NCBI GenBank assembly: GCA_001692895.1
Contig: KV748216.1
Span: 1,426,001-1,490,000, forward strand
Direction: 5' to 3'
Length of the DNA stretch: 64,000 bases
From: Cenococcum geophilum 1.58
Lineage: Eukaryota; Ascomycota; Dothideomycetes; Gloniales; Gloniaceae
The notes beneath the pieces were generated by a model that saw nothing but the letters and a program-made list of their open reading frames with translations, was not told the DNA's origin and ran no database searches. Position 1 is the stretch's first letter. Every line of letters begins with the position of its first letter. The translations under genes were made by a program, and so were the position numbers. This document shows, in pieces, positions 545-17,100 of this stretch.

Positions 545-2947
545 TTATATATTCTCTATTTGCCACTCATTTAGAGCTTTAAGCGAAGACTTTATATTAG
601 GATGGTGAGTGCCAAAGATCTGTTTCCCTAACTGCAGGCATATTTTCATTAGTAAGATAGCCTCCTCACTGCGGCCTTGAGACTTCAGCGTGAATGCAAG
701 GTTATTCATGCTGGCCAGCGTGTCTGGATGCTCCTCCCCAAGCACCCTCTTTCTCGTCTCCATCACTTGCACCTCTAGCTCCTCGGCCTCCTTCCACCGC
801 CCTTGTTTCATGTACGTCAACGCCAGGTTAGATATGCTGGTCAGCGTGTCTGGATGCTCCTCCCCAAGCACCCTCGAGCATATCTTTAGTTCTCTGGTTT
901 GAAGCTCTTCAGCCTCCTTCCACCACCCTTGATTCCTGTACGCCGACGCCAGGTTAGCCATGCTGGTCAGCGTGGAGGGATGCTCCTCCCCAAGCACCCT
1001 CTTTCTCGTCTCCATTACTTGCACCTCTAGCTCTTTAGCCTCCTTCCACCGCCCTTGATCGATGTACGTCGACGCTAGGTTGCCCATGCTGGCTAGCGTG
1101 TCTGGATGCTCCTCCCCAAGCACCCTCTTTCTCGTCTCCATCACTTGCACAAACAGCTTTTCGGCCTCCTTCCATAGCCCCTTAAGATTGTATACTAACC
1201 CAACCATCGCCATACTTCTTAGCGTTTCCTGATGCTTTTGACCCAGTACTTCCCCCCTCACTTGCATCGACTTAATAGCCATCGTCTCCGCATCTGTTAC
1301 GCTTCCCTTTCTCCACGCATACCATGCTGCCTTATACAGTAGTGAAGCCCACTCGCACAATGAACTTTTCCCCTCAGGTTGCTGCTCCAACGCCGACTTT
1401 ACGTGGGGAAACAGCGCCTGACATTTACCCCAATTCTCGTGCTCTCCTGTAGGGAACTCCAAGTAAAGAGTCTTGATATACTGCTACCTCCATCTCTAGA
1501 GCTACCCGTTGGCCCCTAGCCACTTCCGCATTGCCAGCTGTACTAGCACGTGCATTTCAAAGGTTATTTAATCCTCAGCGACAGAAACGAATGAATAGTC
1601 TCGTAGGGTTAGCAAATCATCTTCGAACCCATCCTCGTGTTTACTATGTCTATCGTGCCCTTCCTGGTCTCTGCGGCTGTTTCTATTGCGATTAAAAAGA
1701 CGTCTAAGATGCCTGATTGCTCGAGACTCCTTTCTATGCGGATGTTGGCTATATTCTCCGAGTCTTACTCGATTTCGAACTAAAGCTTCAGGAATCCCTT
1801 GCCGGTCAAAGAAGCTCATAAATGACAGTAGATTAGCGGCCGACGGCTTCGTCCGGCATATATAATCAAACGATATCTGCCACGTAATGATAATGGAATT
1901 CTTAGCCTCTCGGTCTCTACGAAGTTGTCCCGCTTCCTTATATAGGAGACTTGTCTTCTCGCGGTCGCTCTTCTGGAACTCTAAGAGATACTGGCGCACC
2001 GAACAACGCGGCACTCGTTGGGTAATATATGCTGCTGCCTGAACAATAGCAAGCGGCATGAACTCAAGTGCCGCCACCAATTCGCTGGTGCCATCGCTGG
2101 TACCCTGTATCCCTAACTTCTTCTCGAGCAATGCCAGCGCGTGCAACTCTTCCATTGGCAGCACAGCAATTATATCGCTCTCTTCCATCAGCTTTAGTGC
2201 CGCCGCCCTAGTCCGTGTCGTGACGAGAATCGACCCGTTCTGGCTCTGGGGCAGATACGCCAGCAGAGGCCGCAAATTCCGGCTGTCTCCATCGTTCCCC
2301 TGGTCTTCTTTGCCTGTACTTTGAGCTATGAGGAGGAAGCTAGCGTCATCAACATTGTCGAGGACAAGGATCCACTTCCCCTTCTTCTCATCACACAGCC
2401 AGTCGTGGACAAGCTTAAATATATTCACCCTCGGATTGCGCCGGCCGGAAATCTTGAGGTGGTCTGCGATATCCCAGTAGCTCTGCTCGAAGCGGGCGGC
2501 GTTGCTCGCATGCACCCAGAAAACCCACGTCTCTGCCGACTGCTCTCGAATTCGGTAGCAGTGTTCGATTGCAAGCTGCGACTTCCTGCCCGAAAGTCAG
2601 CTTTGGTTTTGACGCATCGCGCCTACTCACCCGACGCCGCCTAGGCCGACAAGCGCTGTCCAAGACCCGGGCGCCGCGCATTTTTGGTGGAGTTGGTGAA
2701 GTATTGTTCCGCGGTCGACAAAATCTGGGTCGCGGCGGAAAGGGACGAATAACGAAGGGCTTGGCGGAGTCTCCGGGCGTTCTGTATAAACAGAGCGTGG
2801 TTAGCATGGCGCTGGACGAGGCGGCGGAAGCTAGCACTTGCCGACCGGAGGGTGAAAGTGGGCCTCGACGGTGCCAGAGCTGTACCCGACTTGTAGGCCC
2901 CGGTTCTCCGGGCCCGTAAACGTGGTCGTAGCGCTGGGGTAGGCCAT
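545..2947 (-). pseudogene. NB-ARC/TPR NLR with N-terminal PP (RHIM-like) amyloid motif, interrupted by nonsense codons
   Basis: A STAND-class immune-type receptor. Exons: 2947-2842, 2781-2631 and 2585 onward. Exon 1 (35 codons) holds a glycine-rich motif, NRGLQVGYSSG, close to the fungal PP consensus NxGxQxGxNxG. Exon 2 reads into the linker that precedes NB-ARC in fungal NLRs and ends at GLGGVG. Exon 3 resumes with KSQLAIEHC, so an intron splits the P-loop; WILVLDNVDD (Walker B) follows. From 1462 to 545 come about five kinesin-light-chain-type TPRs of 42 residues (LGEEHPDTL, GRWKEAEEL). Intron 1 (2782-2841) has a GC donor (GCAAGT), CTAAC branch point and ACAG acceptor; intron 2 (2586-2630) is GT-AG. 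Between 1570 and 1463 the frame continues through the conserved FEMH..LVQLA region but contains one TAA and three TAG codons, so no full-length product is expected. It is divergent from the HeLo gene at 3227. NB-ARC/TPR identity is firm; pseudogene status assumes the assembly is correct. Confidence 0.85.
690..1200 (-). repeat. Tandem about 126-bp TPR-coding repeats
   Basis: Near-identical 126-bp units each encode one 42-residue tetratricopeptide repeat of the NLR. The string GVQVMETRKRVLGEEHP-like core (VQVMETRKRVLGEEHP) occurs three to four times with few substitutions, and the nucleotide repeats are visible on the plus strand (for example gcatgctcctccccaagcac-type blocks recurring). High identity between neighbouring TPRs is known in fungal NLRs and reflects recent unit shuffling or conversion. 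Confidence 0.8.
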
Positions 2948-3226
2948 TGTAGGGCACGGCGATCTGGGTTGTCTATCGTCTGGAGCTTTGAGCAGAGAGA
3001 TAGCTGCTCTTGCACATCAGGCTGGCTTTCGCCTCAGCTAGTCGGCATGTTCTAATTATAGCGCTATGCCGCATCGCGGCGTACGATGCGCCCGGCCCTC
3101 TTCTGTTGCCGCTCTGCACAACGAGCTTATAAGGGCGTAGTTCCTAGGGTCACACACGTATTAAAATTCCGTTCTTCACCTTGTCGCTCTAACTTCTTAT
3201 CGTTTTCTATACTTCAGCTGAACGAC
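2948..3226. promoter_or_regulatory. Shared intergenic promoter of the NLR and HeLo genes
   Basis: A 279-bp gap between divergent start codons. It must contain both promoters. No specific transcription-factor site was recognised. The arrangement resembles other fungal NLR/effector pairs in which both genes sit head to head. Confidence 0.5.
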
Positions 3227-4021
3227 ATGGTAGAGCCTGCTGGTCTTACTATTGGCGTTGTAGCCCTTGCTAGTCTCTTCAATAATGCTGTCGAATGCTT
3301 CGAATTTGTCCAACTTGGCCGGAAATTTGGAAAGAACTTCCAAACGAGTCAGCTTAAGCTTGACAATGCAAGACTTCGTCTGTCGCGGTGGGGGAAGTCC
3401 CTAGGTCTGGGCGATAATATTGAACATACGGTGTCGCTTGAGGAGCGCTTTGGGTCTGACCCAACCGTCAAACAGGCCGAGGCTTTACTTGGCCAGATTC
3501 TCGAGTTGTTCGCTGAAGCTGAAGGCGTGTCGAATAAATACAAGAGTCGGACAACGACCGAGGACAGTAGCCTTGTAACATGCAACCCGCAAACTGATCT
3601 AGATCCGGCAATGGCAGAGCTCCATCACAAAATGCGGCAGCTAGCAATCGAGCGCCAGAACCGATCTAGCGTACGGCAGAAGGCAAAGTGGGCATTGTAC
3701 GAGGAGAAGCAGTTTAGACGACTAATCGAGGACATCACCGAATTGGTCGACAGCCTGGTAGAGCTTTTCCCGACTAGTCAGCAGTCTCAACGCAGCCTGT
3801 GCGAGATAGAGGTATCTACGATTAACGGAAATGAGGGCATCTCGGTGTTGAGAGAAATCGCCGCTGCACAAGACAAATATCTAGCGGATGCGTTCACAAA
3901 GGCGATGGGTAATACCGGAGGGTCATACCATATTGTGTTTTCAGGCAGCAACAATAATGGCCTTCAGGTTGGTCACAATTCTGGCACAATGAAGGGGTTC
4001 ACATTTGGGAAAGGGAGTTAA
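3227..4021 (+). CDS. HET-S-like HeLo-domain effector with C-terminal PP motif
   Basis: 264-aa single-exon protein. The open frame extends to 3086, but the ATG at 3227 begins MVEPAGLTIGVVALASLF, matching the start of HET-S family HeLo domains. Typical HeLo signatures follow: FNNAVECFEFVQLGRKFG, then QLKLDNARLRLSRWG (residues about 20-60). The HeLo domain fills about residues 1-225; in HET-S it forms a membrane-inserting cell-death module. The C-terminal tail carries NNNGLQVGHNSG (about residues 242-253), an exact match to NxGxQxGxNxG, the PP motif related to mammalian RHIM. In known systems this tail is templated into amyloid by an activated NLR with the same motif. The divergent NLR upstream carries that motif, so they look like an effector/receptor pair. 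Domain call is firm; function is inferred from family. Confidence 0.9.
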   Translation: MVEPAGLTIGVVALASLFNNAVECFEFVQLGRKFGKNFQTSQLKLDNARLRLSRWGKSLGLGDNIEHTVSLEERFGSDPTVKQAEALLGQILELFAEAEGVSNKYKSRTTTEDSSLVTCNPQTDLDPAMAELHHKMRQLAIERQNRSSVRQKAKWALYEEKQFRRLIEDITELVDSLVELFPTSQQSQRSLCEIEVSTINGNEGISVLREIAAAQDKYLADAFTKAMGNTGGSYHIVFSGSNNNGLQVGHNSGTMKGFTFGKGS

Positions 4022-4555
4022 GGTAAGCAAAGTTAAGGTAGATATTATGTCTACTAATTTACGTTTACTCTTTTGTATTCCTTTTTGCCAGCAAATTTAT
4101 AGATGGTGTTCTCGGGCAGGAAGTCATAGCTTATTCCGAACACCGCTACCGGATCTGACAGAGTTTAATACGTCCTAGTTGTTATGTAGAAGGATTTTCG
4201 TTAATAGATCTAGCAAGGAGTCTAGCAAATCAGTCCGTACTTAAAGCGGCGGGCTGAAGGTAAAGAAAAGTCGAGCTATAAGAGCGCTTACGAATGAAAT
4301 CTAACAGTAATGTTAGTGATTTGGCAGTTAAAGTCGCCACCGCTAGCAGGGAAGTGGCCGACCCGCTCCGGCCATAGGGCTGAACGCCTCTTAGCCTATT
4401 TATAAGAGGAAAAGAATGCCGAGTGCTAATTGCCCGCTCTACGACGCGGCCGACCTTCCAGCCATCCGCACGCAACTGAACGGGGACGGAGAACAGCCTT
4501 TATCTGCTGCATCAATCACCCCCAATAGCTGAGCCGCACAACGGCTCCTTCAGCA
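4022..4555. other. Intergenic, no gene seen
   Basis: 3' flank of the HeLo gene followed by unremarkable sequence. The minus-strand open frame at 4230-4475 shows no family features and is not called. Confidence 0.4.
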
Positions 4556-4566
4556 CCACTCAACGT

Positions 4567-5131
4567 GCGAATCGTGTAAGCACTTTCGGGCGAACAAGCG
4601 AGCAGGGGAAACAGTACTATTGCATTGATTCAACATTGAATGCGGAAAGGCAGAAATCGAATTTCTACCACTGTAGCGTAGCTCGGTATCGGTACAAAGT
4701 CTCAATATTCTCATCATATAAGCGGAAACTTTTCGAAAATTGATGTCTTCGACCGGTTAATACTTTAGAGAAGGTGTTTGCGTTTCAGAAAACGCCTTTG
4801 AGCAGAACGTTTGACCACCTTAGGTTTAGCGCCAAGACAGTCGTTCGAAGTGCGGAATAAATTTCAGGAGCGCACTTTAGGGGGAAGCCGGTTTTACAAG
4901 CGACTGTACTGCAAGAAAGGGTAGTACCGCTTGCGGGTGTTCGAATGCGATACCTGCGACCGATCATTTGCTAACCAGCAAGCTCTCCAGCAACACTTGA
5001 ACTCTCCTGCACACGCTCCTTTATACGCTTACGGTGATTGCAACCGGTCCTTTGGTAGCGAGCAAGTTCTCCAGCAGCACTCATCCATGCACGGAGACAC
5101 TACACAAGTATGCTCTGAACTGGAGAGTTAA
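4567..5131 (+). pseudogene. Relic of a C2H2 zinc-finger array
   Basis: At 4931-5131 the frame reads CDTCDRSFANQQALQQHLNS, a good C-x2-C-x12-H-x5-H finger, followed by a decayed second finger (GDCNRSFGSEQVLQQH). At about 4567 another finger start is legible (CESCKHFRANKRA) in a separate frame that soon stops. The fingers resemble fungal proteins built from tandem 'CDRSFGSEQALQQHLNSPAH' units. Frames between them are broken, so this looks like a degraded gene rather than an expressed one. DNA-binding role would be expected of the ancestor only. Confidence 0.45.
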
Positions 5132-5356
5132 TCTTGAAAGTCTGCGGTAACTATTCTTTGCCAGCCATGCCCTTCTCCAGGGAGTCTCAGAAGCTTAACC
5201 CGAAGAACTCCTTTGCTATGCCGCGCAAAATGAACCAAAAACCCACATATGCTCATGTCTATCCCGTATATACCCGCTCCAAATCATAAACATTGTCATA
5301 AAGTCGTGACTACCGTGTCGAATTCCCACATCCTTCACCACCAACCACCCGACCGC

Positions 5357-14151: not shown

Positions 14152-17100
14152 TTAGAAAATTGCGGGTCTAAAACGTCGAATAATAAACTCACCAAAGGCA
14201 AATATAATCGGTGGACTTTGTATGCTCAAGTTAACTACTCGTCTGGGGTTGTTTTGGCTATTGTCTGCTTTGACTTGCGGTCCAGCGTACTCCTCTGGCT
14301 GTAGTTTAGGAACGGCGTCGGAAGAAGGCTCTGAAGGTCCAATCTTATCAGGGCCCATGTGTGGTTCTATTTTGAGGGGTTGACCTTTTCTTTGGAGCTC
14401 CCGCTCTGAGCCCAATGCAAATAAATCCGCTATACCAAAATCTGCTGTCTCTGGGTCCAATATCGCCCAGTCTAATGTCTCCAGCTTTGGGGCGATTTTA
14501 CAATTAATTAGCTTCTTTAATGTCTCAGCATTTTCAAGACGCCAGAAATCGACTAGCTCGTAGAGTGTGACTCCTGCTCCCTGGCCCTCTTCCATGATAT
14601 ACTCCCATGTTGTTTTGCCGGCAGCCCTGGTAAGGACCCATGCTCTATTCGGAACCCCACCAAATCTGAATTCCACCTCACCACTGGCACTACTACTAGC
14701 CTGGACTCTTAAACCCAGATCGGCATTGGCTTTCAAGAACATCTCCAGTAGTTCTCCGTAAAGCCGCTTTTCTCCCGGTTGGTAACCAGGCAGCAAGCAT
14801 ACCGCATGGGCGAAGGTTTGTACCCAGATGCTCTCTCTAGGGACTTCAAATGGCTGCCTCTGGGGAATATTTACATGCGTGTTTAGAGGCGTGCCGCTTC
14901 TCAAGCATGAAAGTAGAAATTCGGTTCCTGCGAAATCGTCTTTCTTCACATTTCCAGAATTAATAGCACCGAAAAGTCTGGCAAACTGAACCGTGTCGCT
15001 GACCAAGGTAAGATCTTGGGTAATCTTCCACGAGACATAGTCTATATAACCCAGATTCGCCGCCATGTGGAAGACAGACACAACCTCGCTGCGATAGAAA
15101 TTAACACTCGTGGGATGAAATGATAAACGCGACCCTCTGAGGTCATTCTGACTCTTTTGTTGGATATGAAGGCAAGCGGAATGAAGAATCTCCAGGAAGC
15201 GGAATGGAGCCACATCCTTTTTGCTTGCTTTTCGAAGGCGAAGAATCTCTAGAATTTCAAGGGTCAAAAATTTGAGACTTTCTGAGCTTTGTCCGCAAAA
15301 TTTAAATTCAGCGAGAAGTGATTGACACACGGCCTCAACAATGTCGAAGTTCTTGCAATAGCCTTCCATGACTCCCAGAATTGCTTTCCCCGTGACAAAA
15401 TCGAAAATCGAGCGATGGGCGAAAGTTATTGACTGAGGACAAAAATGCTGGCTCCATGATTTGCTGTCATGTCGGAATTCAAGAAGGCCTTTCAATTGGC
15501 CATTGAGCCTCGCCGGTGCCCATTCTGTACGGGAAGAGATTTCGGCCTGACCAGTGTCAGAATCTTTAAAACCTGCATCCATGGCGAAATTGGCGTTCTT
15601 CTCGTAATCCTCTAGAAAAGTATATCTGAATAAGGACATATCAGGACATTCGTATTCTCTTAGCTTCGTCACAACGGCGAGCGTTCGATACGCTGTCCTA
15701 CGGTCCGTTGGATTGATCGACTCAAGGAGATACCTAAAGAGAGGTTCCATGCCCTGAGGCATATCTTTGAGTCTTTGTAAAAGACTAGAAAGCCGGTTGT
15801 CATAGTATATTCCTTCTCTTAGTGACTTTAGAACTAAAGCGACCCATAGAAAAATACCATCGGCTCTATTGACAATTTCTTCCACCAGGCTTTCACTGTT
15901 TTCGACGCTGGTTTCATTGTCTTTTAATATTTGGAAGCCCTTCAATCTTTCTCTTACGAAATTTCTAATGTCTTCTCTAGTGAGATCCTGAACCCTGAGC
16001 CTCTTATCTTCACCGAAAGCTTTGCGAAAGACTTCGTATTCTCTACTGGAGACGCAGAGCTTCACGTCCGGGAGAGCAGACTCAGTCCAACTGACGAGCT
16101 GGTTAACCATATCACTATAGTCTTCAGAGCATGTTTCTTCGTATTCGTCCAGGCCGTCGATGAAAAAGCACACCCGGTGGTTCTTATACACCTGTCGATT
16201 CCGGACAAGTTGCTCAAACGCTTGGAAGATCTCTTGTTTTGACAGGTTTAGCTTGGCTGGAAGTCGACCGTCTAAAGAGGTCATCTTTTGCCATTGTTTT
16301 GGAAACACGGAGGGTATCAGGTCGGGACATTGCTCAAGAGTGTCATACAAGAGAGACCGACGTAAGCCACTCAGGGATTTTTGATTCTCCTCACCAGCTC
16401 TCCAAAGGAAAAATTGGGCAAACACTAGCTTCTTATTCGTCCCCGCCCACTCGTTCAAAAGCTCCATTGTGCGGTCGTGCTCGCATAGGTATTTCATTAA
16501 TGTAGACTTTCCAGACCCAAGTTTCCCAGCAATGTGGAAAATACCACTTCCATTACTTAGCCAGTTGACAAATGAAACTCCGCTTTGGTGATCATTAACT
16601 TTAGCATAAGACAGATCCTCGAAAATCCATCGAAAAGTTTTGTAATGGGCTTCGTTAACATTATCGAACCTAGAGCGCATTTTCTCAAATGCCAGGGCTT
16701 GCAAAATATGATGTTCCGCAATTATTCGATGAGGGCCACCTAGGAAGCTTCGCAATAACTCTTGAACATCTGGGCTGGCGGACTTGATATTGACTCCGCA
16801 TTGAAACTCCTCAACCTTTTTTTGCAGTGAGATTAGCTCGGCTGAGTTGGATTTCGCTGACTCAGCTATGATCCTAAGATGGTCTTTTATTTTCGATCTA
16901 TCACTATTGTTAATATGTATTTAGTGACGCAAGTTTGGGGTATGAACCTGTCCAGAGCTGCAAGCCGCATATTTAGCTGGTTTCCGCACTCGTTCAGCCG
17001 TTTCTGTAGTTGAAGTTTATCATCTTCGTGTAGCTTGCCTATCATTGCCGCAAAAATAACTTGAGTTTTAGATTTCTGATTCTTTGGCTTCGTTTTTTCA

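Follow-up and report, generated by a model that had tools for sequence, protein, structure and literature searches.

The name PP dates from 2012 and was given to a motif in a group of genes that included HeLo genes of Arthroderma next to NB-ARC/TPR genes (Daskalov et al., PMC3321046), and a 2015 survey of 579 HeLo proteins, in the portion cited here, lists PP among the motifs already known from these proteins (PMC4518210). In Arthroderma otae and A. gypseum a HeLo protein with a C-terminal PP motif is encoded adjacent to a STAND gene whose product combines NB-ARC and TPR with PP at its N-terminus, an arrangement shared by the Cenococcum geophilum locus described below, albeit the Cenococcum receptor gene is broken by stop codons. 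PP likewise sits on the effector tail and at the head of an NB-ARC/TPR receptor in HELLP/PNT1 of Podospora anserina and HELLP/SBP/PNT1 of Chaetomium globosum, and in these systems the PP regions are prion-forming and turn the effector on (sections of PMC7885112). They have a HeLo-like effector, an intact receptor and a demonstrated function (same sections), whereas Cenococcum has a canonical HeLo effector and a broken receptor, and its function is argued from analogy. The RHIM of RIP1/RIP3 has the GxQxG core in common with PP, and PP and RHIM prions cross-seed in part (same sections of PMC7885112). PF17046, the Pfam profile used below, is called PP, "misnamed SesB", in a passage of a 2025 paper (PMC12261475).

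Another close system is HET-S/NWD2 of Podospora, which shares with the Cenococcum locus the effector domain family, the divergent gene pair and, in het-s strains, a receptor pseudogene beside a kept effector (PMC3321046, PMC4344463, PMC3531502, each in part). HET-S/NWD2 has HET-s motif repeats and a NACHT/WD receptor, whereas Cenococcum has a single PP motif and an NB-ARC/TPR receptor. In the portions of these papers drawn on here, every wild het-s isolate has nwd2 as a pseudogene and retains the HeLo-prion gene (PMC3321046, PMC4344463), and the [Het-s] prion haplotype is apparently specific to Podospora anserina (PMC3321046, PMC4344463, PMC3531502). As outlined in parts of the same literature, the death switch proceeds from ligand-driven oligomerisation of the NLR through amyloid formation by the receptor head, which then templates the tail of the effector, to release of the HeLo N-terminus and membrane damage (PMC3531502, PMC4344463, PMC7885112). 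Among the titles listed for the literature on Cenococcum HeLo/NLR genes none concerned the gene pair considered here, a weak negative.

The window, by which we mean the whole stretch of 64,000 nucleotides from C. geophilum 1.58 that was analysed, is part of contig C41 in a genome of 177 Mb and 162 contigs. It contains two neighbouring, divergently oriented genes with PP at the C-terminus of the effector and at the N-terminus of the receptor, the frame of the latter being interrupted. Their features are the following, the borders and introns of the NLR gene being manual predictions.

3227..4021, plus strand: intact single-exon gene of the HeLo-PP effector, 264 aa (open frame, PF14479 and PF17046, 345 homologues at E<=1e-5)
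3242..3832, plus strand: HeLo domain (PF14479, E 4.9e-55 in the genome search)
3914..3997, plus strand: PP motif of the effector tail (PF17046, E 2.7e-9 genome-wide)
2948..3226, no strand: divergent intergenic region shared by both genes, 279 bp, between start codons at 2947 and 3227
2842..2947, minus strand: predicted NLR exon 1, carrying the PP head
2864..2938, minus strand: PP motif of the receptor head (PF17046, E 2.7e-5 genome-wide, exceeding the cut-off)
2782..2841, minus strand: predicted GC-AG intron, 60 nt
2631..2781, minus strand: predicted NLR exon 2, encoding the linker and the first half of the P-loop
2586..2630, minus strand: predicted GT-AG intron within the P-loop, 45 nt
545..2585, minus strand: predicted NLR exon 3, with NB-ARC region, stop cluster and TPR region
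1484..1570, minus strand: four in-frame stops on an MHD-like segment (TAA at 1570-1568; TAG at 1504-1502, 1498-1496 and 1486-1484)
545..1483, minus strand: TPR region in open frame beyond the stops (PF13374, E 1.7e-72; PF13424, E 2.6e-59)

The effector gene runs from an ATG at 3227 to a stop codon at 4019-4021. Its assignment as a canonical HET-S-type HeLo protein, made in the first-pass annotation, holds, as the Pfam search of the protein gives PF14479 at E 1.1e-56 and the solved relatives are the three HET-s/HET-S HeLo structures 2wvn, 2wvo and 2wvq. An AlphaFold2 prediction for the HeLo fold, built on 47 sequences, reached a mean pLDDT of 43.7. The tail motif NNNGLQVGHNSG occupies residues 242-253 (nt 3950-3985) of the 264 residues and is matched by PF17046 at E 1.3e-10 in the search of the protein; the RHIM family gave no match to this protein in Pfam at E up to 1. 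On the minus strand the divergent NLR gene spans 2947-545 with a predicted ATG at 2947, and its head NRGLQVGYSSG corresponds to residues 15-25, with Ser replacing one core Asn. Taken by itself, the NB piece of exon 3 reaches 15.6 bits, below the Pfam threshold of 23.5 for NB-ARC; the NB-ARC type of this receptor is assigned mainly through its homologues. With this reading, sequence supports the NB-ARC/TPR type proposed earlier.

Are the two motifs genuine PP motifs? A six-frame search of the whole genome with PF17046 returned 11 matches, six of which exceed the curated cut-off, and the effector tail ranks first (45 bits) and the receptor head fourth (32.3 bits, cut-off 23.2). Both motifs are located where the first-pass annotation had placed them, and the profile search that it had proposed for the two ends is positive for both. 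All 120 HeLo homologues listed among the 345 carry PF14479, and 112 of them also PF17046. GxQxG is present in 107 of these 120 and absent from 13, beginning exactly 20 residues from the C-terminus in 87 of the 107, and the full pattern NxGxQxGxNxG is fitted anywhere in the protein by 99. For the receptor, searched with residues 1-100 as query, 102 of the 120 homologues listed among 494 have a usable GxQxG core within their first 70 residues, and 31 of the 120 carry a precomputed PF17046 match. Homologues lacking the motif at these positions had been named as the finding that would speak against the pairing; checked on the homologues listed, the pairing was not refuted. At least 14 contigs among the matches listed, four of them shorter than 70 kb, hold a HeLo hit together with an NLR hit, a count obtained by pairing the two tables by eye, and in Puttea exsequens the locus tags of the two genes are consecutive. 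The pair of a HeLo-PP protein with an NB-ARC/TPR protein is, as a sequence type, known and common in the proteins searched. The suggestion that a HeLo domain with PP and a TPR-type receptor is a less usual combination therefore fails, since HeLo and PF17046 occur together in 112 of the 120 homologues listed and the paper that first described PP already includes the Arthroderma pairs (PMC3321046). As a module the locus is ordinary, the pair type having been published since 2012.

What may set the locus apart is its state. Because of the four premature stops the NLR gene is not intact across the interval 545..4021 for which the module had been proposed. Over 339 residues the NB-ARC stretch of the window shares 99.7% identity with P0326 (K441DRAFT_225382), a C. 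geophilum 1.58 database protein that terminates at the first stop; the cluster of P0326 on record has three member sequences on two contigs, the longest 27.6 Mb. In the relatives P0241 and P0242 (ENA proteins), one of them 96% and the other 92% identical to the window's NB part over 315 residues, the same stretch is open and the frame runs through into the TPRs, so that open receptor copies exist in close relatives. The stops are all TAA or TAG, of the type produced by RIP, and the ratio of TA to AT is 1.44 in the 161-bp stop stretch, consistent with a possible RIP-like origin. RIP as their sole cause was rejected, as the ratio is just 0.94 over the whole NLR gene and also raised in nearby non-coding sequence (1.27 in the intergenic region, 1.24 in 4022-5200). 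In the 6 kb to the left of the window, no match to the HeLo, NLR or C46 receptor protein (see below) was found at E 0.01.

Taken together, we consider it very probable that the window holds a PP-type divergent pair, an intact HeLo gene and a four-stop NB-ARC/TPR gene with one PP motif each, whose relatives with an open receptor likely possess a receptor-triggered amyloid death switch and whose effector is here probably orphaned. The sequences themselves show the motifs, the architectures, a pairing that recurs, the stops and two more broken sister loci. In the working form a ligand would be sensed by the TPR region, leading to oligomerisation of the receptor; the clustered PP heads would adopt an amyloid fold that templates the effector's PP tail, and the HeLo N-terminus, once released, would cause damage to the plasma membrane. 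Amyloid folding, templating and toxicity are here carried over from HET-S/NWD2 and HELLP/PNT1. Since the receptor gene is truncated by stops, the HeLo protein is probably deprived of its own trigger. The receptor/effector cell-death module of the first-pass annotation can accordingly be retained as a known type whose pair recurs across fungi, and given up as a working unit at this locus, which probably lacks one because its receptor gene is broken; a known module appears, most probably, to have lost its local receptor.

If the receptor is gone, is the effector still of use? The whole genome contains 18 HeLo matches, and the neighbours of those in the window and on contigs C39, C11 and C65 were checked. 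C39 carries an intact HeLo-PP gene, 69% identical to the window HeLo, separated by 287 bp from the start codon of a divergent NLR, of which just 33-37 head residues match in the 9.5 kb examined, the receptor body being gone. A weak additional NLR match of 45 residues (E 0.043) on C39 was left uncounted. On C11 the match to HeLo is confined to residues 2-87, the gene being cut. The NLR divergent from it shares 42-45% identity with relatives; its frame is open for 674 codons at the NB part, and its PP core contains an in-frame TAA. No NLR match was found within the 9.5 kb fetched around the C65 HeLo match. The interest of the locus may lie in the finding that, among the three divergent HeLo/NLR loci found, none is an intact pair, while two retain a conserved HeLo-PP effector. 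That every such pair is broken, and that the HeLo gene on C11 is itself cut, would fit a relic in which both genes decay and the HeLo gene is unused. The conservation of the effectors argues against this. At 109 columns that are the same in >=90% of 47 aligned sequences (the window protein and 46 of the 120 listed homologues), the window HeLo departs twice and the C39 HeLo not at all, with a range of 0-9, despite the lost receptor body on C39. The C39 HeLo copy, identical to P0074 (K441DRAFT_664799, C. geophilum 1.58), is moreover on record from 34 contigs. The mean majority is as high in the PP segment (0.81) as in the HeLo body (0.79), the linker reaching 0.57, and dN/dS between the window and C39 copies is 0.12, though with a dS of 1.6, near saturation. 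Few departures, low dN/dS and a retained PP segment suggest that both effectors remain in use or have fallen out of use not long ago, albeit the conservation may reflect no more than a recent loss of the receptor. Decay of the whole pair is therefore a reading that we regard as rather unlikely.

An orphaned effector may also have found another role. In the window, as far as the sequence tells, a receptor pseudogene lies beside an intact HeLo-prion gene, the state that marks the [Het-s] prion haplotype in Podospora, where het-s strains combine an nwd2 pseudogene with a kept HeLo-prion gene (PMC3321046, PMC4344463, in the portions used). The receptor, open in relatives and broken here, could likewise have become dispensable and the HeLo-PP protein have turned into a prion or allorecognition element, a prospect in keeping with the conserved effectors. 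In HET-s, however, the HeLo domain is inactivated, whereas no inactivating change was identified in the window HeLo. Its residue E23 agrees with most of the family (91 of 101 scored homologues), and its K33, found in 2 of the 101, is shared with P0001 and P0002. We regard a het-s-like haplotype as improbable. The further idea of an independent second origin, in which the Cenococcum PP-HeLo protein outlived its receptor as a natural prion or allorecognition element, broken and open receptor haplotypes differ by lineage and the C39 head serves as a stand-alone PP seed, we hold to be equally doubtful.

The orphaned-effector reading presupposes that the stops are real interruptions. All four fall within 29 of the 765 codons of the NLR frame, a clustering reached in about 2 of 10000 draws with random placement, and the frame is otherwise open on either side, as an unrecognised intron or a bypassed stretch in an ordinary functional module would have it. 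Yet the stop stretch is homologous to the coding sequence that is open in P0241 and P0242, and it covers the MHD-like segment, for which the search pattern matches 70 and misses 50 of the 120 NLR homologues listed among 494. None of the three GT sites within the 70 nt that precede the first stop fits a fungal donor consensus. The database model P0326 also ends at the first stop. On the sequence an intron was rejected, and a receptor that works here is very unlikely. Coincidental resemblance of the two motifs without a common role, for which their shortness and the Ser in the head could be adduced, is effectively refuted by the genome-wide PF17046 values and by homologues of both proteins that hold the motif at the same ends, and its probability is negligible.

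Head and tail could in principle be matched pair by pair. This was rejected, as a head-tail score as high as that observed is reached in 6911 of 20000 shuffles of 13 same-contig pairs, a set that excludes the Alternaria burnsii contig with its HeLo tail cut inside the motif, and in 3 of 24 permutations of four modules of the Cenococcum genome itself. By sequence comparison, the likeness of head and tail is one of motif type. The PNP_UDP module on C10 has a different motif subtype (QAG...IHG), and the hydrolase-type tail on C10 scores 36 with the window head and 35 with the head of its neighbour. By PF17046 further PP receptors are found on C46, as heads of the QAG subtype on C10 and C37, and in a second pair on C10. 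In the C46 receptor model P0150 an N-terminal stretch matches alpha/beta-hydrolase weakly, at a score under the cut-off, and the model also has NB-ARC and a PP motif that lies internally; the C46 TPR region is partly N in the fetched stretch. To return to the orphaned effector, the least supported part of our proposal is that it remains in use, most simply triggered in trans by another PP receptor, for which C46 is the best candidate. For the window HeLo tail the best-scoring partner is the head at its own locus (61, against 55 for C46), and for the C39 HeLo tail it is the internal motif of the C46 receptor (62).

Features of the same genome that resemble the window HeLo/NLR pair in whole or in part, together with two further NLR-like frames, are as follows.

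C39:1423417-1423524 (L020:3417-3524), NLR PP head of 33-37 residues
C11:911186-914155 (L026:4686-7655), third divergent HeLo/NLR locus
C10:417563-420903 (L022), PNP_UDP-type protein and nearby NLR head
C10:465761-466362 (L023), PF17046-ending frame of 204 codons
C46:414117-415422, receptor with internal PP motif (protein P0150)
L020:6621-7836 (on the C39 stretch), PP-like head and NPHP3_N/NACHT frame
Window 14155-16920, minus strand, NLR-like gene, 922-codon frame with matches to NPHP3_N, NACHT and DUF7791

In the C39 sister locus 287 bp separate the NLR PP head from an intact HeLo-PP gene, and no NLR body was found behind the head within the 9.5 kb examined. In the C11 sister the HeLo gene is truncated past about residue 87 and the PP core of the NLR is interrupted by an in-frame TAA. 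Across the genome, many NB-ARC and HeLo-like (PF17111) matches contain several in-frame stops, almost all TAG or TAA, which is a RIP-like pattern.

PP-like motifs are also found with other partners. On C10, a PNP_UDP-type protein (399-codon frame) carries a PP-like tail of the QAG...IHG subtype, which is common to the nearby NLR head. Elsewhere on C10, the 204-codon frame has PF17046 at its C-terminus and contains no other Pfam domain; after it comes an NLR whose head is PP-like. In P0150 a weakly alpha/beta-hydrolase-like N-terminus precedes the internal motif and NB-ARC.

The metagenomic protein P0084 (421 aa) combines HeLo, PP and TPR matches in a single chain, possibly through a fusion, possibly as an artefact. 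The window itself holds another NLR-like gene, listed last, and in the PP-like head on L020, NYGLEVGINLGNIN, upstream of the NPHP3_N/NACHT frame, the central Gln is replaced by Glu.
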